Positions 5,801-64,000 of a DNA stretch of 64,000 bases are shown here, one piece after another. Position numbers and translations under genes: made by a program. Under the pieces are notes generated by a model, which worked only from the letters and a program-made list of their open reading frames with translations, made no database searches and was not told the origin of the DNA. How positions within the stretch are numbered: the first letter of the stretch is position 1; each line of letters opens with the position of its first letter. The DNA is taken from NCBI GenBank assembly GCA_002898295.1, contig BEHX01000001.1, positions 1 through 64,000 on the forward strand, read 5' to 3'. This DNA comes from a bacterium HR21. GTDB lineage: Bacteria > Bacteroidota > Ignavibacteria > Kapaibacteriales > HRBIN21.

Positions 5801-8800
5801 GATGCTGCCGAGCGGGCAGCGTACCCGTATCCGCTCTCCCTGGAGGACGACCCCGCACGAGATAACTTCGCCTTCGACTACACGAAAGACCCAGGGCTGC
5901 TGACAGAGACCGATTTCGAACGCTACAACGCGCCAGAGGGGAACTCGCAATCCGAGCTGGGGCAGTTTCCCGATACAGAAGTGCTCAACCCGAACAACGG
6001 GCAGACCGTCATGCTGGAGAACAGTTACTTCAGCTACCGCATCCGCCTGGACCCCAACCCAGCGACCAACCCGCAGATTGTCGGTGGCGGCAATAATGGG
6101 TGGTACCTCTATCGCATCCCCTTGCGGCGTCCGGACCGGGTCGTCGGCAACCCGCTTTTCTCAAACATCCAGTACATCCGGCTCTGGGTCAAGGGTGGGG
6201 CGCTCAAGCTCCGCATCGCCGATTGGCGCTTGACCGGAGCTCTCTGGCAGAAGCGGCATCCTTTCCAGGCGTCGGCAACCGAGCAAGACTCCGTATTGGA
6301 GGTTGCTTTCGTCAGCCGGGAAGAGAACAGCGGTCCGCCCGACTACTACACGATGCCTCCGGGGGTGCTCCCACCTCGGCAGTTGAGCAATCCGGACCCG
6401 ACACAGGACATTCGGCTCAACGAGCAATCACTCGTGCTCCGGGTTCGGAACCTGCGCTACGGTGAGGAGCGCATGGCGGTGCGGCTTTTCCCACAGCGCC
6501 TGGATATGCTCTACTACCGGAAGCTGAAGCTCTTCGTCCACGGCGATGGCAGTATGCCCTTCCGGCTCGGCAGCGGCGAGATCCCGCAGGCGGAGATTTT
6601 CATCCGCTTCGGAATTGATTCGGCCAACTACTACGAGTACCGGCGCCCGCTGTTGCAAGGATGGCAGGACATCCAGCTGGATTTGCGGCAATTGGCAGCG
6701 GTGAAATCCCTGCGAGACTCCCTCTTCCAACGCACTGTCTTTGAGACAGCGCTTGCGGGTGATCCGCTGGGGCGGGTCCGCGTTCGAGGCAATCCCAGCC
6801 TGACGCAGGTGCAATTCATCGGGCTGGGGATTGCCAATCCGGCAGAGCGTTTCCCGAACTTCCTGACCACCACCGTTTGGGTTGACGAGTTGCGGCTGAC
6901 AGAGCCCGACGCCCGCCCCGATTGGGCAGGAATTGCCGCAATGGACCTCCAGCTTGCCGACCTGGGGACGCTCACCGTGAACGTATTGCGGACACAGCCC
7001 GGCTTCCATCGGCTCGAGGAGCGCTTCGGCGACCGCGTGTTGCGCAGCTCCTGGAACGCTGCTGTCACGTTGGCGCTGGAGAAGCTCTTCCCGAAGAGCT
7101 GGCGCGAACTGCGCATCCCGTTCACCTACACGCACTCCGAGCAGCTGGAAAAGCCAGTGCTGGTACCGCAAAACGATATGCCAGTGGAGGAAGCCGCCGA
7201 CGCCGTCCGCCGGCAGCGTCTCCAGCAGGGAGCTTCTCTGCAGGAGGCAGAAGCTGCTGCCCAGCAGGTGCGGGTACGGAGTCAGACACTCCGCGTCCAG
7301 GATAGCTGGGCAATCACCGGGCTGCGTCCCGGTATCCCGAGCTCGGTATGGTGGGTGCGGGATATCTTCAACCGGTTCACGCTGGGCTACTCGTACGCGC
7401 AGGAATTCGAGCGCTCCCCGCAGGTTGCTGAGCGCTTCCGCTGGCAGTGGAACCTGACCCTGCAGTACGCTGTCCAGATGCGTCCGCTGCTTGCAGTGCG
7501 CCCGCTGGGCTGGGGCGGGAAAATCCCGGTTGTGAAAGAGTTTGCTGGCTGGCAGCTGTCGCCCTGGCCGACCAATCTCGGCTTCGGACTGACACTGACC
7601 CGAGGGCGGCAGACCGAACAGCTGCGGGATATCCCCTTTCCCAGCCCTGTGGTCCGGGAGTTTACAGCGCAGCAACAGCTTCAAGCAAGCTGGCGCTTGA
7701 GCGAAGGTGGGCTCTTCAATCCCGCGGTGGACTACTCCCTGACGGCCAACAGCACGTTGGTCCCACTCGAGCAAGACCCCGAAACCGGGCGTCAGCGTAC
7801 CGGCGGGGAGATCTTCCGCCACATGGTTGCTCGGCGTCCGCCGCTGTATCTCGGAGAGGAGACCGCAGTCCGAGAGAACATCACGGTCAATTTCCGCCCC
7901 CGCCTTGCCGAACTGCTCCGTCTCCAGCGCTTCGTGGATCTGACCGGCTCGTACACGGTGACGTACTCGTGGAGCGATCCGCGGCAGCCCGATCCCGCCA
8001 TCCGAGATGTGGTCAAGCAAGCCCAATGGCAGAGCTCCTTGCGGTGGAATACGGCGCTGCGCCTCAAGCAGCTCTCCGAGCAGCTCTTCGGAAAGCCAAC
8101 CGCAGCGGATACTGGCAGGATTCTCCAGCGTGTCTGGAGCGTGCTCCGGTCGGTGCTCTTCGACTACGACAATTTCCAGATCAACTTCCAGCAGGACAAT
8201 AGCTCGCTCAATCCTGGGGTGCTGGGCGGGACGGGGCTGACCAACCTCTGGCTGCGTGCACTGCTGTTCCGGGCACAGACCCCGCTTTACGGACCGACAG
8301 CAGCCTATCAACTCGGGTTGCTCTCCAGCCCGCATGGACAGATACAGCTGCTCAGCAGTCCGCGCTTTCCCTTCTTCCGCTTTGCTACCACGCTCGGGGT
8401 GCGCCCGCCCAATGCAGTGCTGCAGGAGAACTTCTCGCAGCGGAGCGTACTCGACATGCGGACCTCTCGCCCACTGTGGGCTGGAGCAACGCTGACGCTG
8501 TCGTGGAAGAGCGAATTTGCGTACAACCGGAATTGGACGCTGCAGACCGACGCTGCCGGGATTCCGACACCTACCGCTGTCGTGGTGACCAACTCCTACA
8601 GCCGCACAGCGCTCTTTTTGCCGCCTTTCCTCTTCCTGGCTCTCTTCCGGAATACGCCCGAGCGAGTTCTGGAGCTGTACGAGCAGCAACGGGGGGCAAT
8701 TCTGGCAAGCACATCGGATACTACCGAGCAGAATATGCGCTTGCAGCAGGCGCTCTCGGAGGCATTCCGGCGGGGTGTGGAGAGTTTCCGCTGGTATCCG

Positions 8801-9475
8801 GGCGCGCTCGCGCTCATCATGCCCCGGGTCAATTGGATGCTCCGGTGGGATGGGTTGGAGAAGTGGTGGCCCTTCCGCGTTCTCGGGACCCAGCGCGTGT
8901 CGCTCGACCACTCGTATAGCTCGACCTACCGCGAGAACACCCGCCTCACCGATCGAGGACGGGTCATTGACGCCCAGCAGGTTGAAGCCAACTTCCAGCC
9001 CTTTCTCGGGTTGAGTATGACCTTTGATGAGAAAACCTGGCGGGGACCAGCAACGGCGATTCTACGCTACAACCTGCGCTATAGCTATCAGCTGGGGGCA
9101 GCGGCTCGCTCGATTCAACGGCAGGTCTCGCACGAATTTTCGCTGCAGCTGAGCCATACACGACGGGGATTTGTGGTGCCGCTCCTGGGCATGGCGCTCA
9201 AAAACGATATCGAACTGAGCTTCCTGGCCTCTGTGCGCCGGAACGTGACATCCTCCCACGATGTCTTCCGCTCCGGCGGGAGCGACGGCTTGCGGGTAGA
9301 CGGCAGCACGCAGATTACCATCGAGCCGCGTGCCCGCTACACGGTCAGCCAGCGCCTAACGGCGGCGTTGTTCATGCGCTACGATGGCGTCTTCAACGAA
9401 GGAGCAGCACAGCCTGGCTACAGCACCTTCCAGATCGGGATGGATGTCCGGTTGGGTATTTCCGGAGGGCGCTGA
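2831..9475 (+). CDS. sprA: T9SS outer-membrane translocon protein SprA (Sov)
   Basis: Very large outer-membrane beta-barrel that forms the protein-conducting pore of the type IX secretion system, through which folded cargo with C-terminal sorting domains crosses the outer membrane. From the ATG at 2831 it is 2214 residues, in the usual 2200-2500 range. The first ~27 residues are a signal peptide (basic start, hydrophobic core, AMA-like end). A GTG five codons earlier is possible but makes a worse signal peptide. The body is rich in aromatic-ending beta strands. Around residues 950-1000 a segment with PNGKLDTEDG and GILDAGEDVGIDGLND resembles the Asp/Gly-rich calcium-type loops typical of SprA. 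The end (FQIGMDVRLG) is barrel-like. Its presence explains the two T9SS cargo proteins at 59.6 and 62.3 kb. Other T9SS core genes are not in the window. Confidence 0.95.
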   Translation: MRTRAALGLRWWGALLVVVLPAMAAGDTTGGLLPRQSPWYFQSSPEALGPARSTVLQERYELDSATWSWRRRVLSGELELLPPWSWGSLEEYLLWRQHLWRDRLWDSLWQQYDIRLAYSPQERNQLLGQIATITIPLPPNPLLTIFGKPEISISVAGEVNVRAGWRWDWQRLGTASAVGQVQSSPMFSQSINLNVSGRIGDKVRLGVDWGSHRMFEFDNKFRLGYEGSDDDVVRKVELGNVSFQTPSTLISGAQALFGIRSDFQFGPLFLKTIAAQKRAERRVTRLQGGALRQRFALRAYEYARNHFFLDTAYRSVYREYFRYATPVVPAAATPLRVKEIEVWESTTDLRVTQAANAVAFAELPPVAVGQRYDESYKQAAVVAGEVERGRFVRLDPSQYRFNPQLGILTLTTLRQDRTYAVAYRIEGPTERPEDDLVYGTFSNTAGESDTLVLKLIYRPNFQPGFRSLWARQLRNIYSIGTRAVQDATIRIWYIRDTNDSSEVLEGSPDKLVTILGVDRVNNATGDPTPDGLFDSGLQSPFFDVQNGEIIFPSLEPFREGLRQYFAARGVASLAERYVYGAVYDTTVEAARLQTDRDRFVIAGEVTGSAGSRISLGAFNLEPGSVRVYLNGTPLKEGDDYIVQYYSGEVILRNPRATLPNANVEVEYEPRDLFTIGARTLLGLRGDALVLNRRRLKATWGFTTMFYHQAALIDRVRLGDEPVSNWILGTDLNLQWETPWLTTLLNALPFVDSKENSQLRLRAEFAQMFPTPNTRRSEVASDQGAPVVYIDDFEGSDRRLPLGMLPGYWRHSSPPVDPDIAPDARTAALYRGKLFWYQFFLPETPIREVYPNRDLIPGQSNLRALYIVFRPDERGIYNQNPEFVDFRNPLFDSTTAFARRPENRRRIWGGMTRLLSSYPLNLDAENYEYLEIMMRVEHAEPGTELFIDLGQISEDLIPNGKLDTEDGITQAAPLPNGILDAGEDVGIDGLNDAAERAAYPYPLSLEDDPARDNFAFDYTKDPGLLTETDFERYNAPEGNSQSELGQFPDTEVLNPNNGQTVMLENSYFSYRIRLDPNPATNPQIVGGGNNGWYLYRIPLRRPDRVVGNPLFSNIQYIRLWVKGGALKLRIADWRLTGALWQKRHPFQASATEQDSVLEVAFVSREENSGPPDYYTMPPGVLPPRQLSNPDPTQDIRLNEQSLVLRVRNLRYGEERMAVRLFPQRLDMLYYRKLKLFVHGDGSMPFRLGSGEIPQAEIFIRFGIDSANYYEYRRPLLQGWQDIQLDLRQLAAVKSLRDSLFQRTVFETALAGDPLGRVRVRGNPSLTQVQFIGLGIANPAERFPNFLTTTVWVDELRLTEPDARPDWAGIAAMDLQLADLGTLTVNVLRTQPGFHRLEERFGDRVLRSSWNAAVTLALEKLFPKSWRELRIPFTYTHSEQLEKPVLVPQNDMPVEEAADAVRRQRLQQGASLQEAEAAAQQVRVRSQTLRVQDSWAITGLRPGIPSSVWWVRDIFNRFTLGYSYAQEFERSPQVAERFRWQWNLTLQYAVQMRPLLAVRPLGWGGKIPVVKEFAGWQLSPWPTNLGFGLTLTRGRQTEQLRDIPFPSPVVREFTAQQQLQASWRLSEGGLFNPAVDYSLTANSTLVPLEQDPETGRQRTGGEIFRHMVARRPPLYLGEETAVRENITVNFRPRLAELLRLQRFVDLTGSYTVTYSWSDPRQPDPAIRDVVKQAQWQSSLRWNTALRLKQLSEQLFGKPTAADTGRILQRVWSVLRSVLFDYDNFQINFQQDNSSLNPGVLGGTGLTNLWLRALLFRAQTPLYGPTAAYQLGLLSSPHGQIQLLSSPRFPFFRFATTLGVRPPNAVLQENFSQRSVLDMRTSRPLWAGATLTLSWKSEFAYNRNWTLQTDAAGIPTPTAVVVTNSYSRTALFLPPFLFLALFRNTPERVLELYEQQRGAILASTSDTTEQNMRLQQALSEAFRRGVESFRWYPGALALIMPRVNWMLRWDGLEKWWPFRVLGTQRVSLDHSYSSTYRENTRLTDRGRVIDAQQVEANFQPFLGLSMTFDEKTWRGPATAILRYNLRYSYQLGAAARSIQRQVSHEFSLQLSHTRRGFVVPLLGMALKNDIELSFLASVRRNVTSSHDVFRSGGSDGLRVDGSTQITIEPRARYTVSQRLTAALFMRYDGVFNEGAAQPGYSTFQIGMDVRLGISGGR

Positions 9476-9494
9476 GAGCCGCTCTTGTGGCACC

Positions 9495-10928
9495 ATGGAC
9501 ACCCGCACCATGGAGATGTTCTCGGAGTATCCCGCAGTCTCTGCATGGGAGGTGCTCGATACAGCTGCCAACGCGGCAGAGCGCCTGCAATGGGCACTGC
9601 GGAAGAAGCGGGGCTGTATCCTCCTACCGTGGACTCATCCTGCAGCACTGCCGGACTTTATGCCCCCGTTTGACTGGGAGCGTACCCCGTCGGGACGCTT
9701 CCCGCCGGGCAAGCAGCTCCTCTTCCGTCTCCTGCAGCGTGCGCCACGGTTTGATCCGCGGCATCCCATCCCGGGAGAAGAGGTGCGCTCTCTGGTGGTG
9801 TTCCGCTACGATGCCATCGGTGACTACTTAGTGACGACCCCGCTTCTGCGGTGGCTCCGTCAGGGGTTGCCACAGGCACGGCTGTGTGTGGTAACTTCAA
9901 CGCGCAATGATGGGCTCGTTGGGCAGGATCCTTGTGTGGATGAGCACGTTCCCCTTCACCCTATGCATGGGGTTCATCCCTCGTGGGTGCGAGCCATTGT
10001 GCGCCTGCGCGGTCCGCATCAGGTGGTCTACGCTTTAGTGTTCACGCACATGAGCAAGGCAGCCTTTCTGGCGCGCAGTATTGCGCCGGAGGCAGAGTAC
10101 ATTGCTCCGCGGCATTGGGAACGCGCCTACCTCTATGGATTGGTCTTCCACCGCCAGCCGGAGCATTGCCCCTGGCGGCAACACTGGGCGCAGACATTGC
10201 TGCAGATAGGGTGCAGGACGCTTGCACCCTGTGTTCCGGTGGAACCCTCGCCGCGGTTGCATGTTCCCGTCTCAGCAGAGGCATGTGAGCGGGTCTGGAG
10301 CGAACTCGAGCGGAGAGGGCTCGGTACTGTGCCGCCTCTTGGTCTGCCGGTGCCGGCTCGTGGCTCATCTCCACTGCGGTGGGAGCCGGTCGAAGGGATG
10401 CCATACGCTGTGGTCAATCTCTCTGCATACTCGAAGAATCGCCGCTGGGCAGTGCACCATGCGCTCGTGGTCTGTCGTGAGTTGCTCCGGCGCATTCCTG
10501 GAATAGCTCTCGTGGTGACGGCAGCACCGCAGCAGAGGCGGCAGGTCGAGACACTGGTGCAGGCTGTGAGGGATTCCCGCTGTCGAGCCTTCCAGGGGAG
10601 CCTCTCGGAGTTGATTGCTCTGGTTGCTGGGGCGGCGTGGGTTTTGTCGCCGGATACGTCCGTGGTACACCTTGCCTCAGCATTGGGCAAGCCCGTGGTT
10701 GCGCTTTACAGTGAGCTCATCAAGGTCGCCGAGTGGTATCCCTTTGGGGTGCCGTCGGTGTGCGTGCTGAGCCCGCTCTGGGGTGGGGTAACCTTTGTGC
10801 CGCCGGCGGCAATTGTCGAAGCGGTCGAACGCCTGGTGCAGGAAGTTATTCCTGCTGGGGCAGTGATTCCGCCGGTGCCGTTGCCCAGCGGAGGAGCGCT
10901 GTCAGGGAGTGCCACGGGGAAGTGCTGA
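9495..10928 (+). CDS. GT9-family (heptosyltransferase-like) glycosyltransferase
   Basis: Predicted cytoplasmic GT-B enzyme of the ADP-heptose:LPS heptosyltransferase family (WaaC/WaaF type), 477 residues from the ATG at 9495. A GT9 N-domain begins around residue 94 (LVVFRYDAIGDYLVTTPLLR, with the conserved GD...TTP pattern). The C-terminal domain carries the donor-site block SPDTSVVHLASALGKPVVAL. The first ~90 residues are an extra N-terminal region not typical of WaaF. The frame runs back to 9384 inside sprA, but 9495 is the first start clear of it. It lies 19 nt after sprA, so it is probably cotranscribed. With gmhB and the lpx genes it suggests a heptose-containing LPS core, although the sugar is not proven. 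Its last 83 nt overlap the 3' end of the convergent FAD/Fe-S gene. Confidence 0.82.
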   Translation: MDTRTMEMFSEYPAVSAWEVLDTAANAAERLQWALRKKRGCILLPWTHPAALPDFMPPFDWERTPSGRFPPGKQLLFRLLQRAPRFDPRHPIPGEEVRSLVVFRYDAIGDYLVTTPLLRWLRQGLPQARLCVVTSTRNDGLVGQDPCVDEHVPLHPMHGVHPSWVRAIVRLRGPHQVVYALVFTHMSKAAFLARSIAPEAEYIAPRHWERAYLYGLVFHRQPEHCPWRQHWAQTLLQIGCRTLAPCVPVEPSPRLHVPVSAEACERVWSELERRGLGTVPPLGLPVPARGSSPLRWEPVEGMPYAVVNLSAYSKNRRWAVHHALVVCRELLRRIPGIALVVTAAPQQRRQVETLVQAVRDSRCRAFQGSLSELIALVAGAAWVLSPDTSVVHLASALGKPVVALYSELIKVAEWYPFGVPSVCVLSPLWGGVTFVPPAAIVEAVERLVQEVIPAGAVIPPVPLPSGGALSGSATGKC

Positions 10929-13599
10929 GCATTTCCAGTGCACGGGCGCAGGGAGCGTTCGTTGTATACCCCGGTGCTGCTTCCCCCGGAGCGAGCAACC
11001 GCGATCCTGCCGAGCGGGACAGCTCAGGGCGGCGCAGCCAGAGGTCGCCGGCCGCACCGCAGCACTCGGGGCTGGGCAAGAGGGAGACCGTCTCAGCACA
11101 TGCCCGAGCAAGCTGCACGGCTGTGTCTGCCAGTCCCATGTGGTGGAGGGAACACGGGATGTGGAGGCGGAGAGCCGGTTGGCGTCGTCGAGGTTGCAGC
11201 GCCGCGGAGAGCCGGGCAGCGTACTCGAGTGCATCCAGGATAGGGAACGCCGCAGTCGCTGTGCTCTTGAGCCAGAGGGCACACGAGTTCCCCACCACGA
11301 TGAGTGCGTGCGGATGGCTCTGCGAGGCAGCTTCTAGAAGGCGCTGGCGTGCGTGCTCAGCTGCCTGGAGAAAGCCCTTTGAAGCGAAGACAAGTCCACA
11401 GCAGAGACGCTCCGCCGAGGGGAGGACTGCCAAGGGCTCTCCGAACTGCTGGGACAGTGCGAGTATATCCGCCGGTGCTGTGCTGCCGAGCCATCGTTCC
11501 CCACATCCAGGGAAGAGCACCGCGATGCCCGGCAGCGGGGGAACAGAAGGGAGGCGGAGAGGAGCGCTCCGGAGGCTCGAGTGCCAGAGAGGAAACGCCC
11601 TGCCGGAGACTCGGTGGAGCGCGGCGGTGAGACGCTCGAGCCGGGACGCACCGAGCACGCGTGCCATCCCACGCCCGACCGCCAGAGTTGCTCGCACGGC
11701 AGCATCCACCCAGCCGTAGTGTCGGGCTGCGAACACCGTGAGACGGTTGGTCGCAGAGTGATGCCGTCGTTGACGCAGCTCCCGCACGAGCTTCCCCGTA
11801 TCGATGCCAACCGGGCATCGCAGCTGGCAGAGTCCATCGGCAGCACACGTGTCTATCACGGCATAGCGCCACCTCGTGTCCTGCAGAGCCGGAGCATAGC
11901 GCAGCAGGGCAATCCGCTGTCGGGGCGTCAGGGTCAGCGTGCGGCTGGGACAGACCGGTTCACAGAACCCGCACTCCATACAACGGTCAGCATCCGAGCC
12001 GAGCAGAGGCGTGCGTTTCAGATTCCGCACGTGCACACGCTCGTGCCGGCTGAGGATGACATCCGGGTTGAGAATTCCCTCAGGGTCAATGAGGCGCTTG
12101 AGCTCCCACATGAGCTCGTAGGCGTCGTCGCCCCACTCGGCACGGACAAACGGTGCCATATTACGTCCGGTGCCGTGCTCGGCTTTGAGCGAGCCGCCGT
12201 GTTCGAGCACTAGCGCCACGACCTCGTCGAGCAAGGCGGCGTAGCGTGCAGTGTCCTGTTCGCTCCGCAGGGGTTGGGGGAGCACGAAGTGGAGATTCCC
12301 ATCTTTGGCGTGCCCGAAGATGACTGCGTTGGGATAGCCATGCCGTGTCAACGCCTGCCGGAGGCGGCGAACGGTGTCGGGGAGAGCCTCCAGCGGGACG
12401 GCGATGTCTTCGCTGATGGGCGTTGTCCCAAGCGGGCGCCGGGCAGCAACCAGCGGATAGAGGCTACGGCGAGCAGCCCACAGATGTGCCTGCTGCTCTT
12501 CCTCGGCGGTCAGCAGTGGAGGTGCAAGCAGAGGGAAATGGTCAAGCAGCGCCTGGGTCTGCTTCCTGCATGCCTGGTGTTCGCTCTCGGTCCAGCGTCG
12601 GTATTCGATCAGCAAAGCGGTAGCAGCGTCCGGCAGAGCGTGGAACTCCGCCGCAATCCCGGGACGACCTGCCAGAGAGCGTAGCGACGCGCTATCGAGC
12701 AGCTCGACTGCATCGGCTCCGAGATCTCGCACCAGAGCAACTGCCTGGCAGGCCTGCTCCGGGGACGGAAAGAGCGCAAACGCAGTGAGGCGCAGCGGCG
12801 GATCGGGAACAGTCCGGAGCACAATGTCGGCCAAGAAGCCCAGCGTTCCTTCAGAGCCAACCATGAGGTGTGCCAGAATCTGCGCCGGGGAGTCGAAGTC
12901 CACAAAAGCGTTGAGGCTGTAGCCGACGGTGTTTTTCAGTTGGTACTTCCGCTGGATGCGTTCGCACAGCGAGGCGGAATGGAGGATGCGACGCCGGATC
13001 CGGAGAAGCCCTTCGGAGAGCTCCGGCGCGTGCTCAGCCAGAAAGGCATCGGCATCGGGACGAGCTGTGTCGAGGACCAATCCGCTGGGCAGCACGAGGA
13101 GGAGCGATTCGAGCGTGCGGTACGCTGTGTCCCGTGTGCCACAGCACATCCCGCTGGCATTGTTCGCAACGATGCCGCCGAGGGTGCAGACGTCCACCGA
13201 CGCGGGATCCGGTCCCAAGCGTCGCCAGTACGGGCGCAACGCTTGGTTGAGCAGCCCGGCACGGACTCCCGGCTGTGCCCGAATGGCGGCACCATTCCGC
13301 AGGATTTCCCAGCGCTGCCAATAACGCCGTACTTCCACGAGCACCCCGTCGGTGACGGCTTGCCCGGAGAGGCTGGTCCCGGCAGCACGAAATGTCAGCG
13401 GAATGCGGTAATTCCGGCTCCAGGCAAAGAGCTGCCGGATATCTTCCAGTGTCCGGGGGAAGACGACCGCTTTCGGCACGTACCAGTAAAGACCGGCATC
13501 GGGGGCGAACGCGATCCGGGTGAAAGCATCCGTTGCAACCTGCTCCTCCGGCACTACCTGCCGGAGCGCGGCTTCTGCGTCCGCAGGCAGCGCTTCCAT
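10846..13599 (-). CDS. FAD-linked oxidase with 4Fe-4S and CCG domains (D-lactate/glycolate dehydrogenase-like)
   Basis: 917-residue fusion of a GlcD/Dld-type flavoprotein with a GlpC/LutA-type iron-sulfur protein. Residues ~40-180 are the FAD-binding (PCMH) domain (AAGTSLSGQA, GGIVANNASGM). Residues ~240-515 are the FAD-oxidase C-terminal domain, with GHAKDGNLHF at 429-438 and EHGTGR at 474-479. Two ferredoxin-like clusters follow (C540, C543, C546, C550; then C585, C591, C595). Two CCG motifs (LCCG, ECCG) lie in the last third. Family members oxidise 2-hydroxyacids and pass electrons towards quinones or other carriers. The substrate cannot be read from sequence. The ATG at 13599 is 2 nt after the CADD-like gene, so the two are certainly cotranscribed. 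The 3' end overlaps the convergent GT9 gene by 83 nt. Confidence 0.88.
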   Translation of the reverse strand: MEALPADAEAALRQVVPEEQVATDAFTRIAFAPDAGLYWYVPKAVVFPRTLEDIRQLFAWSRNYRIPLTFRAAGTSLSGQAVTDGVLVEVRRYWQRWEILRNGAAIRAQPGVRAGLLNQALRPYWRRLGPDPASVDVCTLGGIVANNASGMCCGTRDTAYRTLESLLLVLPSGLVLDTARPDADAFLAEHAPELSEGLLRIRRRILHSASLCERIQRKYQLKNTVGYSLNAFVDFDSPAQILAHLMVGSEGTLGFLADIVLRTVPDPPLRLTAFALFPSPEQACQAVALVRDLGADAVELLDSASLRSLAGRPGIAAEFHALPDAATALLIEYRRWTESEHQACRKQTQALLDHFPLLAPPLLTAEEEQQAHLWAARRSLYPLVAARRPLGTTPISEDIAVPLEALPDTVRRLRQALTRHGYPNAVIFGHAKDGNLHFVLPQPLRSEQDTARYAALLDEVVALVLEHGGSLKAEHGTGRNMAPFVRAEWGDDAYELMWELKRLIDPEGILNPDVILSRHERVHVRNLKRTPLLGSDADRCMECGFCEPVCPSRTLTLTPRQRIALLRYAPALQDTRWRYAVIDTCAADGLCQLRCPVGIDTGKLVRELRQRRHHSATNRLTVFAARHYGWVDAAVRATLAVGRGMARVLGASRLERLTAALHRVSGRAFPLWHSSLRSAPLRLPSVPPLPGIAVLFPGCGERWLGSTAPADILALSQQFGEPLAVLPSAERLCCGLVFASKGFLQAAEHARQRLLEAASQSHPHALIVVGNSCALWLKSTATAAFPILDALEYAARLSAALQPRRRQPALRLHIPCSLHHMGLADTAVQLARACAETVSLLPSPECCGAAGDLWLRRPELSRSAGSRLLAPGEAAPGYTTNAPCARALEMLSTSPWHSLTALLRWATAPAESLPQQE

Positions 13600-57375: not shown

Positions 57376-59262
57376 TTATTTCTGCAGGGTCTGCAGGAGC
57401 TTCTGCCGAATCTCTTCCGGAAGGAGTTCTGCCAAGGTCGTTGCGGTGCGCTTCTCCGGACGTTGGTGTGGAGGCTTTGGAGGAGCAGGCTGTGGCTGGG
57501 AACGCGGGAGCGAAGCCACGGGACGTGAGGATTTTCGGGAAGGTGTGCTCAGGACTTCTGCGGGTTTCCGCTCCAGGAGCGGCTCGACGACCAGCGAGGG
57601 CTCTTCTGGGTTGAGCTCCACGATGCGCACCCGCAGGTGCTCTCCCGGTTTCCACGGCTCTTTGGTCTTGCGCAGGAGCGGGGCAAAGGAGCTGCGGGGC
57701 ATGAAGGCATCGACCTCCGCGCCGAGCCGGACGAGGGCTCCGGCAGGCTGCATGCGCAGGAACGTAGCGTCCTGCTCCGAGCCCACGGGATAGCGCTCAG
57801 CCAGCTCGTGCCAGGGGCTCGGCTGTGCGTGCCGCAGACTCAACACCAGACGCCGTGCAGCAGGATCGAGCTCCATGACAACGCACTCAACCTCCTGCCC
57901 GGAGTGGAGAAGCTCTGCCGTATGGAGTGGACGCCGTGTCCAGGATAGCTCGCTGAGCGGGATGAAGCCTTCGACACCTTCGGCAATCTCGACCACGGCG
58001 GAGCGGGGCAGCACCCGCCGCACCGTTCCCCGTACCCGGGTCCCGACACTCAGCCGCTCGGCAATGCCCTCCCACGGGTCTGGGTGTGCTCTCCGGTAGC
58101 TCAGTACCAGGAGCTGCCGGTGCGGCTCAAGCTGGAGGACGACGGCTTCGATCCGTTGCCCCACCTGGAGGATACTCGACGGTGCTGGGCGAGCCTGACT
58201 CCAGGAAAGCTCCGCAGCCGGGATAATGCCGGCAAGCCCGGTGTCCAACTCAACGTGGGCAGCAGTCTGCGTCAGACGCCGGACGATGACCTCCACGCGG
58301 CTGCCCACCGGGTACCGTTCGGCAGCCTCGTCCCAGGGATTCGGCTGGGTCCGTCGCAGACTCAGGACCAAGCGCTTGCGCTCGGCGGACACTTCGAGGA
58401 CCACGAACTCCGCCTCCTGACCAGCGCTGAGCAGGTGCGATGGGTGCGGGATCCGCTGTGTCCAGGACAGCTCCTCCACCGGCACAATCCCGTCAATGCC
58501 CGGTTCCAGCTGGACGAACGCCGCTTTCGGTACCACCCGGCGTACTATACCCCGGACACGGCTTCCGACCGGATAGCGCTGTTCAATCCCTTCCCACGGC
58601 GAGGGCAGCAGCGCCCGCCGGCTCAAGCGAACCTGCCGCTTCCCCAGGTCAATGCTGATGACTTTGGTGCGGACACTCTGTCCCAGCTGCAGGACCTTGC
58701 TCGGCGTTGATACCGGCACATGGTCCAGCTCCGCCAGGGGAATCAGCCCCTCGATGCCCCCGATGTCGACAAAAGCCCCGAAGGTGGTCAGGCGCGTGAC
58801 CACCCCTTCGACCTCTTGCCCAACCTGGAGCCGTGCTAAAGCGAGGTCTTCCAAGAAGTGGCGTCGGCTGAAAACGAGTGTGAACGTGCCCTGCTCACTT
58901 CTGCGCAGCTCGTGGGCAATGACGTGGAGGCGCTGTCCGATAAGCTCCCGGAGCTCACTCTCAGCCGGATAGCGCTTCGCCGTTGCCAGCGAGGTGGGCA
59001 AAAAGCCGGAAATACCCTGGTAGAGCACCCGTAAGCCACCCCGGATGCGCTCGACAACGTCTACCTCAACGATGGCGCGCTCGTGCACCAAGCGCTCCAC
59101 TTCGGCAATACGCTCTTCCGAGAGCGTGCTGCCCTCTGCGTCCGGCTCCTCCGTGGGGGGATGAGGAGACTCCTCCGCCTCTGCAGAAGTGTGGGGAAGC
59201 CCTGTGTCCTCACTTCGGGTGTCGTGGATCCTCTGCACCGGAAGCGATGCGTTCTGTTCCAT
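57376..59262 (-). CDS. rpsA: Ribosomal protein S1
   Basis: 628-residue S1 with an acidic N-terminal arm (~1-50) and six S1 repeats: a degenerate first (~65-135), four regular ones (~145-470, each with a VGS/VGQ-type start, the conserved GAF/AAF strand and a ...GLIP-type turn), and a divergent sixth (~485-560). The tail is Pro/Arg/Ser-rich and ends in a helix (LAELLPEEIRQKLLQTL). The repeats are joined by PWE/PWD/PWH linkers. A strong AAAGGAG lies 9 nt before the ATG and a -7 element ~47 nt upstream. It leads a unit with the ABC-class ATPase and the carboxylase. Confidence 0.94.
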   Translation of the reverse strand: MEQNASLPVQRIHDTRSEDTGLPHTSAEAEESPHPPTEEPDAEGSTLSEERIAEVERLVHERAIVEVDVVERIRGGLRVLYQGISGFLPTSLATAKRYPAESELRELIGQRLHVIAHELRRSEQGTFTLVFSRRHFLEDLALARLQVGQEVEGVVTRLTTFGAFVDIGGIEGLIPLAELDHVPVSTPSKVLQLGQSVRTKVISIDLGKRQVRLSRRALLPSPWEGIEQRYPVGSRVRGIVRRVVPKAAFVQLEPGIDGIVPVEELSWTQRIPHPSHLLSAGQEAEFVVLEVSAERKRLVLSLRRTQPNPWDEAAERYPVGSRVEVIVRRLTQTAAHVELDTGLAGIIPAAELSWSQARPAPSSILQVGQRIEAVVLQLEPHRQLLVLSYRRAHPDPWEGIAERLSVGTRVRGTVRRVLPRSAVVEIAEGVEGFIPLSELSWTRRPLHTAELLHSGQEVECVVMELDPAARRLVLSLRHAQPSPWHELAERYPVGSEQDATFLRMQPAGALVRLGAEVDAFMPRSSFAPLLRKTKEPWKPGEHLRVRIVELNPEEPSLVVEPLLERKPAEVLSTPSRKSSRPVASLPRSQPQPAPPKPPHQRPEKRTATTLAELLPEEIRQKLLQTLQK

Positions 59263-59308
59263 TGAACTCAGCTCCTTTCAGGACCTTGTCACAGCAAAGC
59301 AGCGTGCG

Positions 59309-59316
59309 CAAAAATA
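59309..59316 (-). promoter_or_regulatory. -7 promoter element before rpsA
   Basis: On the minus strand TATTTTTG matches TAnnTTTG exactly, 46 nt before the rpsA ATG. Confidence 0.5.
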
Positions 59317-59398
59317 CTAACTTCCCGATGGCAGGCAGGAAAGCTCATATCACGGGGCTTACGCCTGAGGTGAAAAGCGTCGCTCCAGACCAGTCAGT

Positions 59399-59429
59399 GT
59401 CCAAAAATAGCGGAGGAATGGCTTATATT
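59399..59429 (+). promoter_or_regulatory. Promoter-like element of cargo gene 1 (CCAAAA-N17-TATATT)
   Basis: GTCCAAAA begins at 59399 and TATATT covers 59424-59429, with CGGAGG between them. The same arrangement, with the same 25-nt start-to-start distance, precedes the cysteine-rich gene at 61764-61794. The -10-like hexamer is of the TATAAT kind rather than TAnnTTTG. If used, the cargo mRNA has a leader of roughly 185 nt. Confidence 0.45.
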
Positions 59430-59510
59430 CTCCTGGGTCAAGTTTCCTCGAAACGGACAGCCCTTAGCCCGGCCGAACGAGTGAAGGAGTTGAAGAGACG
59501 CAGCTACCGG

Positions 59511-59539
59511 GCTCCATACCATCACCGCTGGTATGGAGC
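59511..59539 (+). other. Perfect hairpin in the leader of cargo gene 1
   Basis: GCTCCATACCA (59511-59521) pairs fully with TGGTATGGAGC (59529-59539) around a 7-nt loop, 82 nt before the cargo ATG. No T-run follows. It could stabilise the transcript, bind a regulator as DNA (the arms form a dyad), or block readthrough. No copy is seen before the second cargo gene. Confidence 0.55.
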
Positions 59540-59621
59540 GAGTGTGAAGCCGTCGAGATGGAGCCTTCAGGCATGGCGTTGGGCATTGATCCGTTCGTAA
59601 GATAAATGCGGAGGGTCAACC

Positions 59622-60998
59622 ATGAAGTTCTGGCAGGTAGTCGGTGGCGCCGTTGTGCAAGTGCTCCCTGTGATGGCGCAGTGTGACTGCAACCCCGCAG
59701 CACTGCAATATGCAGTGTATCCGGATGAGGTGAGACGGCAGACATACCTGACGTATACCAACGCATTTGACGAGGTCGGGGTAGTCTATCGCATCGGGGA
59801 GTTCCAGCTTGTGTCGGAGGAGGGGGTACGGGTGGTGGGGCTCCAGTGGAAAGCGGGGCAGTACGTTGCTGGGCAGGATGCCCAGGGGGAAGACCAAAGA
59901 TTGCTGGAGTATGGGCGAACAGAGAGTTTTGTCGTGCCGGCCAACGGGAGTATGCGCTTTTTCCGCTTGCTGGAGCTTGCTGTGCATTGTGGGAGTCGGG
60001 ATACAGTCTGGCGCTCTGAGAAGCGCAGTCGTGGATTTCCGGAGCGGGAGTGGGTTGTTCCCTTCATGGCGGTGCCGGACCGGATGGAGTTTGTACTGCA
60101 GTTGGTGCGGGCATCGGATGGAGTCGTGCTGGCGGTACTGGACAGCGTCGGGGTGCTGCCGACCACAGAGCAGCAGCCTCGGGAAGCGCCGTTCTACGGG
60201 ACAGAGCCGATGGAGGCGGTACATGAGCGCGACCTGCCCCCAGAGTGGGCAGGGACAGAGGTCTACCTCCGGGTATCCCCGCGCCGGTGGAGACCAACAC
60301 CGTATGGAATGGGGGTGAAAATCTCCGCGGATAAGGTTGCCTGGTCCAGTATCTACGGCTATTCTCCGCAGCGCGAGGGAGCTGACCAGTGCTGGAGATG
60401 GTGCGTCGAAGCATACGGGGGCGGGCGTGCATGGCTCGATACCGTCGAAGCGTACTACTTCTGGAACTACTTCGTGCCATATACGGATAGCATCAAAGCC
60501 GCAACGGGCTGTATTCTCTTCAACTATCCGCCCCATCTGAACGGGATCCCCGTAGCGTATCGGCGGGATCTGTGGAGAGCATGGGAAGAGCGCAATGGGA
60601 TTATCACGGTGTGGCGTGACAGCTCCGCGCGTGGGCGTGCCGGCGAGATTATCGAGGTCGGCTGTGAGGCAGAGACACCCGTGGTTGCGGCTGTAGGGAC
60701 ACGGCAAACCGGGCGCAAAGCGTTGGCACAATTGCAGATCATCCCGCAGCCAGCTCCTGCGGGGGGAGAGCTAACCCTACAGTGGAAGCAGGGGCAGACA
60801 ACGGTGGTAGAAGAGGTGCGCCTGTACGATGGGGTAGGACGTCTGCTCGGGAGTCTCTGGCAAGGGGTTTGGCAGCCACCGCTCCCCCTTGTCCTCAAGC
60901 TCCCGGCAGAGGTGAGCGCTGGGCAGTACTGGCTTGTTCTCCGGACCCAGCGAGGGTGGGAAATCGCACCGCTGCAGATCGTGAAGAGCTCGCCGTAG
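59622..60998 (+). CDS. Secreted protein with T9SS C-terminal sorting domain (paralog 1)
   Basis: 458-residue protein of unknown family. Signal peptide ~1-19 (cleavage near VMAQ). The mature N-terminus CDCNPAALQYAVYPDEVRRQTYLTYTNAFDEVGVVYRIGEF is closely repeated in paralog 2 at 62296, as are FPEREWVVPFMAV, LDSVGVLPTT, VHERDLPPEW and RVSPRRWRPTPYGM. The last ~85 residues look like a type A T9SS sorting domain: IIPQPAPAGGELTL, a VVEEVRLYDGVGRLLGSL strand pair, SAGQYWLVL and a final beta strand. It should cross the outer membrane through SprA and be anchored or released. GGAGG 7 nt before the ATG fixes the start. It is followed by an intrinsic terminator. Confidence 0.8.
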   Translation: MKFWQVVGGAVVQVLPVMAQCDCNPAALQYAVYPDEVRRQTYLTYTNAFDEVGVVYRIGEFQLVSEEGVRVVGLQWKAGQYVAGQDAQGEDQRLLEYGRTESFVVPANGSMRFFRLLELAVHCGSRDTVWRSEKRSRGFPEREWVVPFMAVPDRMEFVLQLVRASDGVVLAVLDSVGVLPTTEQQPREAPFYGTEPMEAVHERDLPPEWAGTEVYLRVSPRRWRPTPYGMGVKISADKVAWSSIYGYSPQREGADQCWRWCVEAYGGGRAWLDTVEAYYFWNYFVPYTDSIKAATGCILFNYPPHLNGIPVAYRRDLWRAWEERNGIITVWRDSSARGRAGEIIEVGCEAETPVVAAVGTRQTGRKALAQLQIIPQPAPAGGELTLQWKQGQTTVVEEVRLYDGVGRLLGSLWQGVWQPPLPLVLKLPAEVSAGQYWLVLRTQRGWEIAPLQIVKSSP

Positions 60999-61023
60999 AC
61001 GGACTCCGGTAAATGAAGCAGAC

Positions 61024-61066
61024 GGGGGCATCTCAGGGCATTTCCGGGGATGCCCCCTCAATTTTT
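61024..61066 (+). terminator. Rho-independent terminator after cargo gene 1
   Basis: GGGGGCATC (61024-61032) pairs perfectly with GATGCCCCC (61049-61057), followed within a few bases by a T-run (61062-61066). It separates the cargo 1 transcript from the sigma-factor unit. It is the only convincing intrinsic terminator in the window. Confidence 0.85.
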
Positions 61067-61130
61067 CACTGTTCCGGAGCATGCGGCGGGGGATTTTTGT
61101 AATTTCCCTCTGCGCTTTTCCAAAGCCCTC

Positions 61131-61736
61131 ATGGGGTTCCAGCATCTCAATCAGGACTCGAAGCTCCTCTGGTTTGAGCTTCGCAAGCGGCTTCTCAAGT
61201 GGCTGCGGCGCCGATATCCGAGAGTCGCCCTGGAGGATGCCGAAGACATTGTCGAAGAGGCGCTCGTGAGGTTCTTCGATAGCCGTCGCGAGTTGCTCTC
61301 CCGGAGAGCTGGGGAGTGTTCGGAGGCGGAAAAGACAGAGTTTCTCCGAAAATTGCGGCAGTGGTGTTGGACGTACACTCGACGTCTACTCCGCAGGCAT
61401 GCTCGGGAAGATCAGCTGCAGGTGCCCGTGGTGGGAGGAGGAACGGAAGTGGAAGGAGGAACGGGAGAAGACAGGGTGGCAGAGACAGGAGAACCGCCCG
61501 ACCCACGACCGGAGCCGAGGGAGATGTATGCAGACCTGCAGCGGGCGGTAGAACGGCTCTCTACAGGGGAACGCGAGGTTGTCGAGAAGGTGCTCTTGCA
61601 GCAGCATTCCTTCAAGGAAGTGGCTCGGCAACTGGATATCAGTCTCTGGGCGGTTTACAAGCGATGGGAACGGGCACGGCAACGCTTGCAGCACGAGCTG
61701 CGGGAATGGCGCCCGGCAAAGAACAAACGAGGTTGA
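61131..61736 (+). CDS. ECF-type RNA polymerase sigma factor
   Basis: 201-residue sigma-70-family factor with only regions 2 and 4. Region 2 covers ~15-90 (RRRYPRVALEDAEDIVEEALVRFFDSRRELL, then the WCWTYTRRLLRRH DNA-melting/-10 helix). A Gly/Glu-rich linker covers ~98-130. Region 4 covers ~133-192 (AVERLSTGEREVVEKVLLQQHSFKEVARQLDISLWAVYKRWERARQRL, a helix-turn-helix for the -35). The linker is longer than in minimal ECF factors. No anti-sigma gene follows; the next gene is a secreted cysteine-rich protein. The ATG at 61131 is chosen over 61050, which lies inside the terminator. A one-mismatch -7 element (GATTTTTG, 61092-61099) precedes it. It probably controls the flanking cargo genes. Confidence 0.85.
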   Translation: MGFQHLNQDSKLLWFELRKRLLKWLRRRYPRVALEDAEDIVEEALVRFFDSRRELLSRRAGECSEAEKTEFLRKLRQWCWTYTRRLLRRHAREDQLQVPVVGGGTEVEGGTGEDRVAETGEPPDPRPEPREMYADLQRAVERLSTGEREVVEKVLLQQHSFKEVARQLDISLWAVYKRWERARQRLQHELREWRPAKNKRG

Positions 61737-61763
61737 GCGGCAAAGCGCCCTCCGGATCTCCAT

Positions 61764-61794
61764 GTCCAACAACGGAGGGGGGAGCGGCTATAAT
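61764..61794 (+). promoter_or_regulatory. Promoter-like element of the Cys-rich/cargo 2 unit (CCAACA-N17-TATAAT)
   Basis: GTCCAACA begins at 61764 and a perfect TATAAT lies at 61789-61794, 17 nt after the CCAACA hexamer, with CGGAGG in the spacer. The geometry equals that at 59399-59429. The predicted transcript starts near 61801, 25 nt before the ATG of the Cys-rich gene. Confidence 0.55.
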
Positions 61795-61825
61795 AATTAT
61801 GGATGCACAGGCTGTGGAGTCTCAT

Positions 61826-62296
61826 ATGCGGGGGTACAAACTGTTAAAGCTGTGGCTCAGTGCCGGCACTGCTTTTGCTTTCTGCTACGGTGGAACGCGG
61901 GACATGAGGGACTGTCAGCGCCCGTGTTGTGATCCCAGCACAGGGAAGTGGTATTGTGCTCTTGCTCAGACGCTGTGCCGGTACCGGTGCTGGGCCCTGG
62001 TTGAGTGTGAGAGGACGACGCCGGAGGGGAATCCGCGCAGAGAGCAGCAGCGGATTTTCTGCGGACGACCGGAGCCGTTTTCGTCTGAGCTTGCGTGCTT
62101 TCTGTTTGCGAACCCCATACCCAGCTTTGTTCGACCATGTTTGGAGGCACAGTATCCTGCGAACACGTGTGAACCCTGGCGAAACCTCCTGGAGGAGTCT
62201 TGTCGGCAGGAGTGTGAGGCGCAAGTAGTGGACGATGGATGCCATGTCCAGACAGTCGAGGTAGAGGTTGGTGCAACTACGTCGGGAGGATGGTAA
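61826..62296 (+). CDS. Secreted cysteine-rich protein (15 Cys in 156 residues)
   Basis: Unrecognised protein. The first ~18 residues are a signal peptide (MRGYKLLKLWLSAGTAFA). The mature part has 15 cysteines, starting with one at residue 20 right after the signal and a CC pair at 34-35, spaced by 2-15 residues to the C-terminus. This implies many disulfides and export from the cytoplasm. It has no transmembrane helix and no sorting domain, so it may stay periplasmic or act with cargo 2. GGAG 6 nt before the ATG at 61826 and the TATAAT upstream set the start. Its TAA overlaps the ATG of cargo 2 by one base (TAATG), so translation is coupled. Third-position GC seems lower than in the lpx operon. 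Confidence 0.72.
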   Translation: MRGYKLLKLWLSAGTAFAFCYGGTRDMRDCQRPCCDPSTGKWYCALAQTLCRYRCWALVECERTTPEGNPRREQQRIFCGRPEPFSSELACFLFANPIPSFVRPCLEAQYPANTCEPWRNLLEESCRQECEAQVVDDGCHVQTVEVEVGATTSGGW

Positions 62297-63648
62297 TGAG
62301 GTGGTGCGGGCTCATCGGTATGCTGTTGGCTGTCGGGCTCCGAGGGGGAGCGCAGGAATGCGACCCGGCGCGACTGCGCTACGCGCTCTCCCCGGAGGAA
62401 TTCAAGCGGCAGACGTACCTGGAGTACGCCAATGCCTTTGACAATGCGTGGGTTCTCTATCGAATTGGGGAGTTCGAGCTCCTGCGGGGCGGAGAAACGC
62501 TGGTAGTGGGCGTGCTCGGCAAGCATGGAAGCTGTGTGCAGGGCAGTAGCCAGCAGGGCGAAGACCAGCAGCTTCTGGGAATTGGGCAGACGGAGGTTTT
62601 CCAGCCCGCAGCGGGGGACCGCATCCGGTTCTTCCGGCTCCTCCACGTGCGTGGGGAGTGCAACGCAGACCAGCAATGGAAGGCACTGCGGGAGACGATG
62701 CCGTATCCTGAGCGTGAGTGGGTTGTGCCGTTCTTATCAGTTTTGGACCGGAGTGAGTGGGTTGTCCAGCTTGTTCGGGTCCGGGATGGAGCAGTGCTGG
62801 ATGTACTCGACAGTGTCGGGGTTTTGCCGACAACGCCCCAGGAGCCCTGGATTGCCCGACCGTATGGGGAGAGGGTCATGGAGACCGTGCACGAACGCGA
62901 GCTTCCTCCCTCAGCAGTTGGCGAGCCGGTAGTTGTGCGGATCTCGCCCCGGCGCTGGGGACCGACGCCTTTCGGGATGACCGTGCGCGTCTTCGTCAGC
63001 GGAATTGCTGCCTCTGCACTGTACCGCTATGCGCCGGACTACCAGGGTCCGTACGTAGGGGTGTACTGCGAGCGGCACCTTGGTCGAGAGTGGATGGATA
63101 CGCTCGTGCTGTACTGTTTCTGGCATCGCCTCCTGCCGTACACGGATAGTCTCAAAGCTACCACGGGATGCCTGATGGAGAATTTCCCGGAAGAGCTCGG
63201 ACATGCCTGCGGTCCGCTCCCGGAGGAGGTGCGGCAGTTCTGGCGCGAGCGCTATGGCATTCGGCTTGAGCAGCTTGAGGATGGCAGGCAGGTGCTGGTT
63301 GAGGAAGGCTGTCCGGAAGCAGCAGTCAGTGCCGTGCCGTCGGCACGGTCTGGCGCTTCCTGGGTTGGCTTTGGCAGTGCTGGCATGCTGCGGATATCGC
63401 CACACCCTGCCGTGGCGGGTGGGACGGTTGTGTGCTGGTTGAGCCGCCCGCGCTGGTTTGAGGAGGTAGAGGTTCTGCTCTACGATGCTCTTGGGCGTTT
63501 CTGTGGGCTACTGTGGCAGGGAAGGTGGGCAGGGCAGCCAGTCTCGGCAGTACTTCCCAGGTCGCTTTCTCCAGGGCAGTACTGGCTTGTGCTGCGGAGC
63601 CAGGGTATGCTCGCTGGCGGTGCCCTGCTGCTGGTCAGACCGGAGTAG
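62296..63648 (+). CDS. Secreted protein with T9SS C-terminal sorting domain (paralog 2)
   Basis: 450-residue paralog of the protein at 59622. Signal peptide ~1-19 (LIGMLLAVGLRGGAQ). ECDPARLRYALSPEEFKRQTYLEYANAFDNAWVLYRIGEFELL, YPEREWVVPFLSVLDR, VLDSVGVLPTT, VHERELPPSA, RISPRRWGPTPFGM and LPYTDSLKATTGCLMENFPEELG repeat the paralog 1 blocks. The C-terminal ~85 residues are a T9SS sorting domain (LRISPHPAVAGGTVV, VEVLLYDALGRFCGLLWQG, SPGQYWLVL). GGAGG at 62285-62289 sits 6 nt before ATG 62296; ATG at 62290 touches the site and is less likely. It is coupled to the Cys-rich gene. Function unknown; no enzyme motif seen. Confidence 0.8.
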   Translation: MRWCGLIGMLLAVGLRGGAQECDPARLRYALSPEEFKRQTYLEYANAFDNAWVLYRIGEFELLRGGETLVVGVLGKHGSCVQGSSQQGEDQQLLGIGQTEVFQPAAGDRIRFFRLLHVRGECNADQQWKALRETMPYPEREWVVPFLSVLDRSEWVVQLVRVRDGAVLDVLDSVGVLPTTPQEPWIARPYGERVMETVHERELPPSAVGEPVVVRISPRRWGPTPFGMTVRVFVSGIAASALYRYAPDYQGPYVGVYCERHLGREWMDTLVLYCFWHRLLPYTDSLKATTGCLMENFPEELGHACGPLPEEVRQFWRERYGIRLEQLEDGRQVLVEEGCPEAAVSAVPSARSGASWVGFGSAGMLRISPHPAVAGGTVVCWLSRPRWFEEVEVLLYDALGRFCGLLWQGRWAGQPVSAVLPRSLSPGQYWLVLRSQGMLAGGALLLVRPE

Positions 63649-63753: not shown

Positions 63754-64000
63754 ATGAGCACGCAGGTTCCGCACCGGCGGTTGTACGAGACAACCGTCAT
63801 CGTCAACGCAGCACTCGAGGACGCGGACATCCGCGCCACGATTGACCGCTTCAAAGAGTACATCGAGTCGCACGGCGGCGAAATTCTCCTCTTCTACGAG
63901 CTGGGCAAGCGGCGGCTGGCGTATCCGATCAAGAAGCGGAACAACGGCTACTATGTCTACGCCGCCTACGAGGCACATCCGACGGCGCTGCCCCTCTTGG
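63754..64000 (+). CDS. rpsF: Ribosomal protein S6 (3' partial)
   Basis: 82 codons are visible before the right edge. RLYETTVIVNAALEDADIRATIDRFKEYI, the GGEILLFYELGKRRLAYPIKKRNNGYYVYAAYEA block and its position match S6, a small-subunit platform protein that binds S18. A strong AAGGAGG lies 5 nt before the ATG. In most bacteria ssb, rpsR and rplI follow. Confidence 0.95.
   Translation, partial: MSTQVPHRRLYETTVIVNAALEDADIRATIDRFKEYIESHGGEILLFYELGKRRLAYPIKKRNNGYYVYAAYEAHPTALPLL

Follow-up and report, generated by a model that had tools for sequence, protein, structure and literature searches.

SigP is an ECF sigma factor that controls T9SS export genes, and the paper on it mentions no anti-sigma factor (PMC4800418). 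According to one proposal, PorA, a T9SS CTD-protein of Porphyromonas gingivalis, passes a signal from the cell surface on to PorXY-SigP (PMC7712824). In known non-canonical ECF groups a cognate anti-sigma gene next door is not required, and N-terminal extensions are known in some of these groups (PMC8999054). No pairing of a T9SS cargo with a Cys-rich protein of the kind described below was found in the open-access literature.

The locus considered here lies in the window, the whole 64,000-nucleotide stretch of DNA that was analysed. An initial annotation had described it as a four-gene cassette comprising a T9SS cargo gene, a terminator, a sigma factor gene, a gene for an exported protein of 156 residues with 15 cysteines (here called CysR) and a second cargo gene, the last two coupled by TAATG. 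All of these elements are found at the locus, and the cassette counts as real. The island and its borders are laid out as follows.

57376 to 59262, minus strand: rpsA-like gene for an S1-domain protein, left border (Pfam S1, 3e-70)
59398 to 59429, plus strand: promoter-like site 1, TGTCCAAAAA-N16-TATATT, 192 nt upstream of cargo 1
59622 to 60998, plus strand: cargo 1, 458 aa, with predicted signal peptide, N-terminal beta domain and T9SS-like C-terminal domain
61024 to 61066, plus strand: intrinsic terminator downstream of cargo 1 (direct reading and pattern scan)
61131 to 61736, plus strand: ECF-type sigma factor, 201 aa, with regions 2 (DAED motif in 2.2) and 4
61763 to 61794, plus strand: promoter-like site 2, TGTCCAACAA-N16-TATAAT, 31 nt upstream of CysR
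61826 to 62296, plus strand: CysR, exported Cys-rich protein, 156 aa, 15 Cys
62296 to 63648, plus strand: cargo 2, 450 aa, paralogue of cargo 1, its start overlapping the CysR stop codon (TAATG)
63754 to 64000, plus strand: rpsF (ribosomal protein S6), right border, continuing past the window end (PF01250, 9e-20)

The left end originally given, 59263, is the upstream edge of the divergent S1-type gene, and the cassette proper begins at about 59398. The terminator is a GC-rich hairpin (GGGGGCATC...GATGCCCCC) followed by the T run AATTTTT. Homologues of the rpsA-like border gene, 59-68% identical, occur in all five (5/5) of the other same-genus genomes. In three of these (G001, G003, G004) no island separates the rpsA-like gene from rpsF, and the two are direct neighbours; in G002 the downstream genes lie close behind the rpsA-like gene, rpsF not being listed by the simple gene caller, and in G005 the contig ends. 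Full-length cargo was absent from all five in the family search (E <= 1e-10), and no close relative of the sigma factor or of CysR was found in them. Given the adjacency of the border genes in congeners, the block is either an insertion here or a relic lost elsewhere in the genus. Its GC content is 0.602, lower than in any 4.5-kb piece elsewhere in the window, where the mean is 0.631 (sd 0.008) and the minimum 0.613; this argues mildly for acquisition. A chance origin of the cassette is rejected because CysR and cargo recur as gene families in other genomes.

The two cargo proteins, which had been called paralogous over their whole length, are indeed 44-47% identical across nearly full length. 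They are sister sequences in the tree with 100/100 support, so that they arose by duplication within their own lineage, and they are the only full-length copies in the 1.83 Mb genome. Of the 98 other genomes searched in the order, 26 have relatives at E <= 1e-10; weaker matches (down to 0.001) mostly involve the sorting domain alone, and a scan of the named genomes with a smaller cargo alignment gave four loci. In a 38-sequence alignment the N-terminal half is strongly conserved (GEF, QGxDxxLL, FFRxL, LDSVGV, YGTxP, GPTPxG) and the C-terminal domain weakly so. Por_Secre_tail (PF18962) is matched by 17/38 members and TIGR04183 by 16/38 (E <= 0.1), in agreement with the original reading of the cargo as T9SS-type proteins with sorting-domain-like ends; cargo 1 and cargo 2 themselves lie below every sorting-domain cut-off (TIGR04183 / PF18962). 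The host genome contains 22 TIGR04183 sorting-domain matches, 14 of them above cut-off. A Sec signal peptide is predicted for the family: cargo 1, cargo 2 and most members have a hydrophobic N-terminus and an A-Q-type site on a simple motif reading. By these profile and alignment matches the cargo is a T9SS-type family of about 450 aa without prior annotation, the N-terminal domain belonging to no Pfam or NCBIfam family.

Searched against solved structures, the cargo profile gave weak matches to the C-termini of 8glk_D (E 0.0016) and 8h97_A (E 0.0065). In the AlphaFold cargo model (mean pLDDT 77) two stretches, residues 30-240 and residues 370-456, are confident and the linker that joins them is of low confidence; cargo 1 divides into an N-terminal beta domain (about 30-240) and a T9SS-like C-terminal domain (about 370-456). 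A fold search with the model returned only Ig-like domains over about 100 residues, and the N-terminal domain had no convincing match among solved structures. Tandem or near-tandem cargo pairs are present in other lineages at L082 (G094) 6129-9287 and L078 (G012) 6215-9829, the pairs in the tree being mostly lineage-specific duplicates. At L074 (G063) 6188-12682 a cargo-type domain opens an ORF of 2164 aa, with CysR still directly upstream. One cysteine of the cargo, at position 123 in cargo 1, tracks the presence of CysR at p 0.04, a value uncorrected for eight columns or for kinship, and no association is claimed.

A single-sequence search with CysR gave no convincing match in relatives, and the family is visible by position only, as an ORF directly upstream of cargo in many of them; these homologues are exported, about 120-200 aa long, and have 10-21 cysteines. 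Scored with a profile from the other members (the window protein left out), the window protein lies above 1000/1000 composition shuffles, and 4/1000 shuffles with Cys positions fixed reach its score, so that most of the similarity comes from how the cysteines are arranged. Among 5,257 ORFs, at loci mostly picked by cargo and with a profile built from cargo-upstream ORFs, there are 27 CysR matches, all immediately upstream of cargo on the same strand, and 0 elsewhere; it follows that the conserved core is the CysR-cargo pair. CysR is directly upstream in 27/48 cargo genes with readable upstream DNA, and the 21 with room upstream and no CysR indicate that it is optional for cargo. Judged from its profile and its position, CysR is a genuine, fast-evolving family of exported proteins with a conserved Cys pattern and cargo directly downstream. 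The order cargo-CysR-cargo seen in the window recurs in L078 (G012), but without the sigma gene. A cargo-CysR fusion was considered for G041 and G051 and ruled out, the extra N-terminus there not being CysR. A fold search with the CysR model (pLDDT 77) gave nothing below E 0.001.

The ATG that opens the longest sigma ORF, at 61050, falls within the terminator stem (right arm), so that the start is probably at 61131, giving 201 aa. The product exceeds the TIGR02937 cut-off (50.6 bits against 42.9) and that of PF08281 (region 4, 3e-9), and falls below the curated cut-off of PF04542 (region 2). On these matches the protein is classed as an ECF-type sigma factor with regions 2 and 4 and no region 3. 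As had been stated, there is no anti-sigma gene in the island, the neighbours being the rpsA-like gene and rpsF. In relatives, a protein search for a sigma ortholog gave generic ECF matches only (E no better than 1e-6). At the majority of cargo loci no sigma gene adjoins, which places the sigma factor as optional and outside the conserved core.

The proposed link between sigma factor and cargo is seen again in other lineages: divergent ECF-like genes adjoin cargo in two other families, in two genomes of one genus and three species of another. The order in G046 is sigma-CysR-cargo, as in the window (PF08281 2e-8), and in G031 an ECF-like gene is directly downstream of cargo (PF08281 0.007). Genus g5 (G009, G018, G025) has an ECF-like gene at both cargo loci of each genome, such that two paralogous sigmas (32% identical) lie beside two paralogous full-length cargos (45%) in three species, with differing gene orientations. 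Leave-group-out profiles find the g5 sigmas at 1e-12 to 1e-15, G031 only at 5e-4, and the window and G046 only at 0.04-0.06, so that a single sigma lineage is not established. Pfam matches of their own mark the window and G046 proteins as ECF-like; for G031 and g5 the evidence is weak but consistent. With sigma profile A4, run across 22 genomes, the nine best genes are the nine cargo-adjacent ones (207-300 bits, next 56 bits); the profile was built from seven of the nine, two not being in it, so the gap measures unlikeness to other sigmas rather than independent discovery. Five cargo-sigma neighbours are seen against about one expected by chance over some 38 independent loci, a rough figure based on the 3-26 sigma-like genes that each genome has. 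In G041 and G051, congeners of G046 with orthologous cargo, neither CysR nor sigma is at the cargo locus, and the G041 cargo adjoins the same NlpC/P60 gene as in G046. A resident ECF-type sigma factor thus accompanies the CysR-cargo core in at least three families, most likely as its local regulator.

Two further observations concern sigma genes elsewhere. In all three g5 species the type-A sigma gene has as its neighbour a gene whose product, some 532-540 aa long, matches TPR weakly (L059 8783-10405, L060 9149-10747, L061 2990-4588), possibly a further part of the g5 module. In the window's own genome, L133 8529-9191 (G000 C2) encodes an atypical ECF-like sigma of 220 aa that is akin to the divergent sigmas at E 1e-7; neither cargo nor CysR lies near it.

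The pattern TGTCCAAMAA-N16-TATAWT has exactly two sites in the 1.83 Mb genome (<=2 mismatches), before cargo 1 and before CysR, and its reversed-pattern control has 0. A different bipartite motif precedes both cargo units in g5, exactly twice per genome in the three genomes (<=3 mismatches; control 0). The window and g5 patterns were fitted to the very sites that they find, so their uniqueness speaks for specificity and not for independent discovery. The similarity of sites 1 and 2 is reached by 8/500 shuffles and by 37/2624 random window pieces; a bipartite form of the test, which is stricter, gave 11/120. The similarity of the g5 motif pairs is reached by 1-7 of 300. A motif common to the cargo units thus has modest, suggestive support (p about 0.01), and the TATAAT-like -10 element of the window motif would suit the housekeeping sigma no less than an ECF factor. 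The 192-nt cargo 1 leader contains a perfect 10-bp inverted repeat at 59512-59538, CTCCATACCA-TCACCGC-TGGTATGGAG. Compared with shuffles, the leader has a marginally better fold (z -1.9), and Rfam gave no match, the leader included.

The preferred explanation, to which a probability of about 0.55 is given, is that the cassette is an accessory surface-display module in which the resident ECF factor drives cargo and CysR expression. Cargo 1 and cargo 2 would be Sec-exported, T9SS-type surface proteins whose functional head is the conserved N-terminal beta domain and whose C-terminal domain serves for sorting. CysR, a small Sec-exported protein presumed to be disulfide-rich and made from one message with cargo 2, would most likely be an obligate partner of the cargo head, whether as ligand, cap or folding partner. 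The resident sigma factor, with no anti-sigma gene, would most likely initiate cargo 1 and CysR-cargo 2 at two private, similar promoters. The analysis directly shows the two gene families, the pairing of CysR with cargo, the repeated occurrence of sigma genes next to cargo and the kinship of the cargo family with sorting-domain proteins; promoter recognition by the window sigma, a surface location and physical CysR-cargo contact, as well as a function for CysR and a trigger for the system, are inferred. The initial annotation went further in two respects. It saw a self-contained system with a dedicated sigma, of which the sigma-cargo linkage recurs, but the core in most relatives is CysR-cargo with no sigma; and its stress- or contact-induced surface layer gains nothing beyond the surface-type export. 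A bolder form of the proposal is put forward tentatively, as possible rather than probable: that this is a self-contained, lineage-diversifying module in which each lineage has its own divergent sigma, a private promoter only at the genome's two cargo units, and a T9SS head protein with a secreted Cys-rich partner.

The regulatory part of the surface-display reading is challenged by the view that the CysR-cargo pair is the sole functional unit, the sigma gene being an unrelated arrival in the island and both cargo promoters being read by the housekeeping sigma. The sigma-free majority of cargo loci, the absence of a recognizable ortholog of the window sigma in relatives, the sigma-70-like -10 elements (TATATT/TATAAT) and the single cargo-sigma neighbour or so that the rough estimate allows by chance over all loci would all fit such a history. 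It is nonetheless considered rather unlikely; against it stand five independent loci in three families whose sigmas are unlike the other sigmas of their own genomes, the presence of a sigma gene beside each of the two cargo copies in three species of g5, and the joint absence of sigma and CysR in G041/G051.

Other accounts assign CysR a different role. It could be a sensor, a secreted redox- or metal-responsive ligand signalling via cargo to the sigma factor much as PorA would to PorXY-SigP; the proposed relay by PorA (PMC7712824) offers a model, and CysR is Cys-rich and tightly linked to cargo. This is thought improbable, given that the island encodes no membrane-spanning relay (anti-sigma or two-component gene) and that CysR is mostly found where the sigma is absent. 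More doubtful still is a conflict module with CysR as a secreted toxin-like peptide and cargo as its surface carrier. Such a role would accord with the small size, rapid evolution and disulfide richness of CysR, with conservation that falls chiefly on its cysteines, with its constant position upstream of a surface protein, and with lineage-specific duplications and a patchy distribution. Yet no toxin or immunity match was found in PADLOC, PHROG or Pfam (PADLOC and PHROGs gave only generic sigma/HTH matches), no cytoplasmic-immunity-like gene is conserved beside the CysR-cargo pair, and CysR-free cargo is common.

The work defines two protein families new to Pfam and NCBIfam whose genes make up a conserved pair in the order around Kapabacteria. 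The surface-display module would include an unusually simple candidate for regulation, a sigma factor whose regulon would consist of two promoters. Confirmation would make it a case of dedicated cargo-level control of T9SS display, unlike the control of machinery by SigP, and would provide a small module for the direct study of sigma-promoter co-divergence.

Among described systems, T9SS type A sorting-domain proteins (TIGR04183 / PF18962) resemble the cargo family in the beta-sandwich-like C-terminal domain and in a signal peptide whose apparent cleavage site is followed by Q in many members, whereas cargo 1 and cargo 2 have diverged below cut-offs and their N-terminal domain is outside Pfam/NCBIfam. 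The window sigma resembles ECF sigmas without an anti-sigma factor (PMC8999054) in consisting of regions 2 and 4 only with no anti-sigma gene, and the g5 sigmas, with N-terminal extensions of about 90 residues, recall the non-canonical ECF groups; it differs from those groups in having no SnoaL-like, TPR or Cys-rich C-terminal extension, and from ECF43 in keeping the DAED motif. By analogy, PorXY-SigP with PorA is the nearest precedent for the cassette (PMC4800418, PMC7712824), since in both an ECF sigma is tied to T9SS genes and a CTD-bearing protein, there PorA, is linked to the sigma pathway. SigP, however, has the secretion machinery as its target and is coupled to a two-component system, whereas the window sigma is encoded inside the cargo locus and its candidate targets are the cargo genes themselves.
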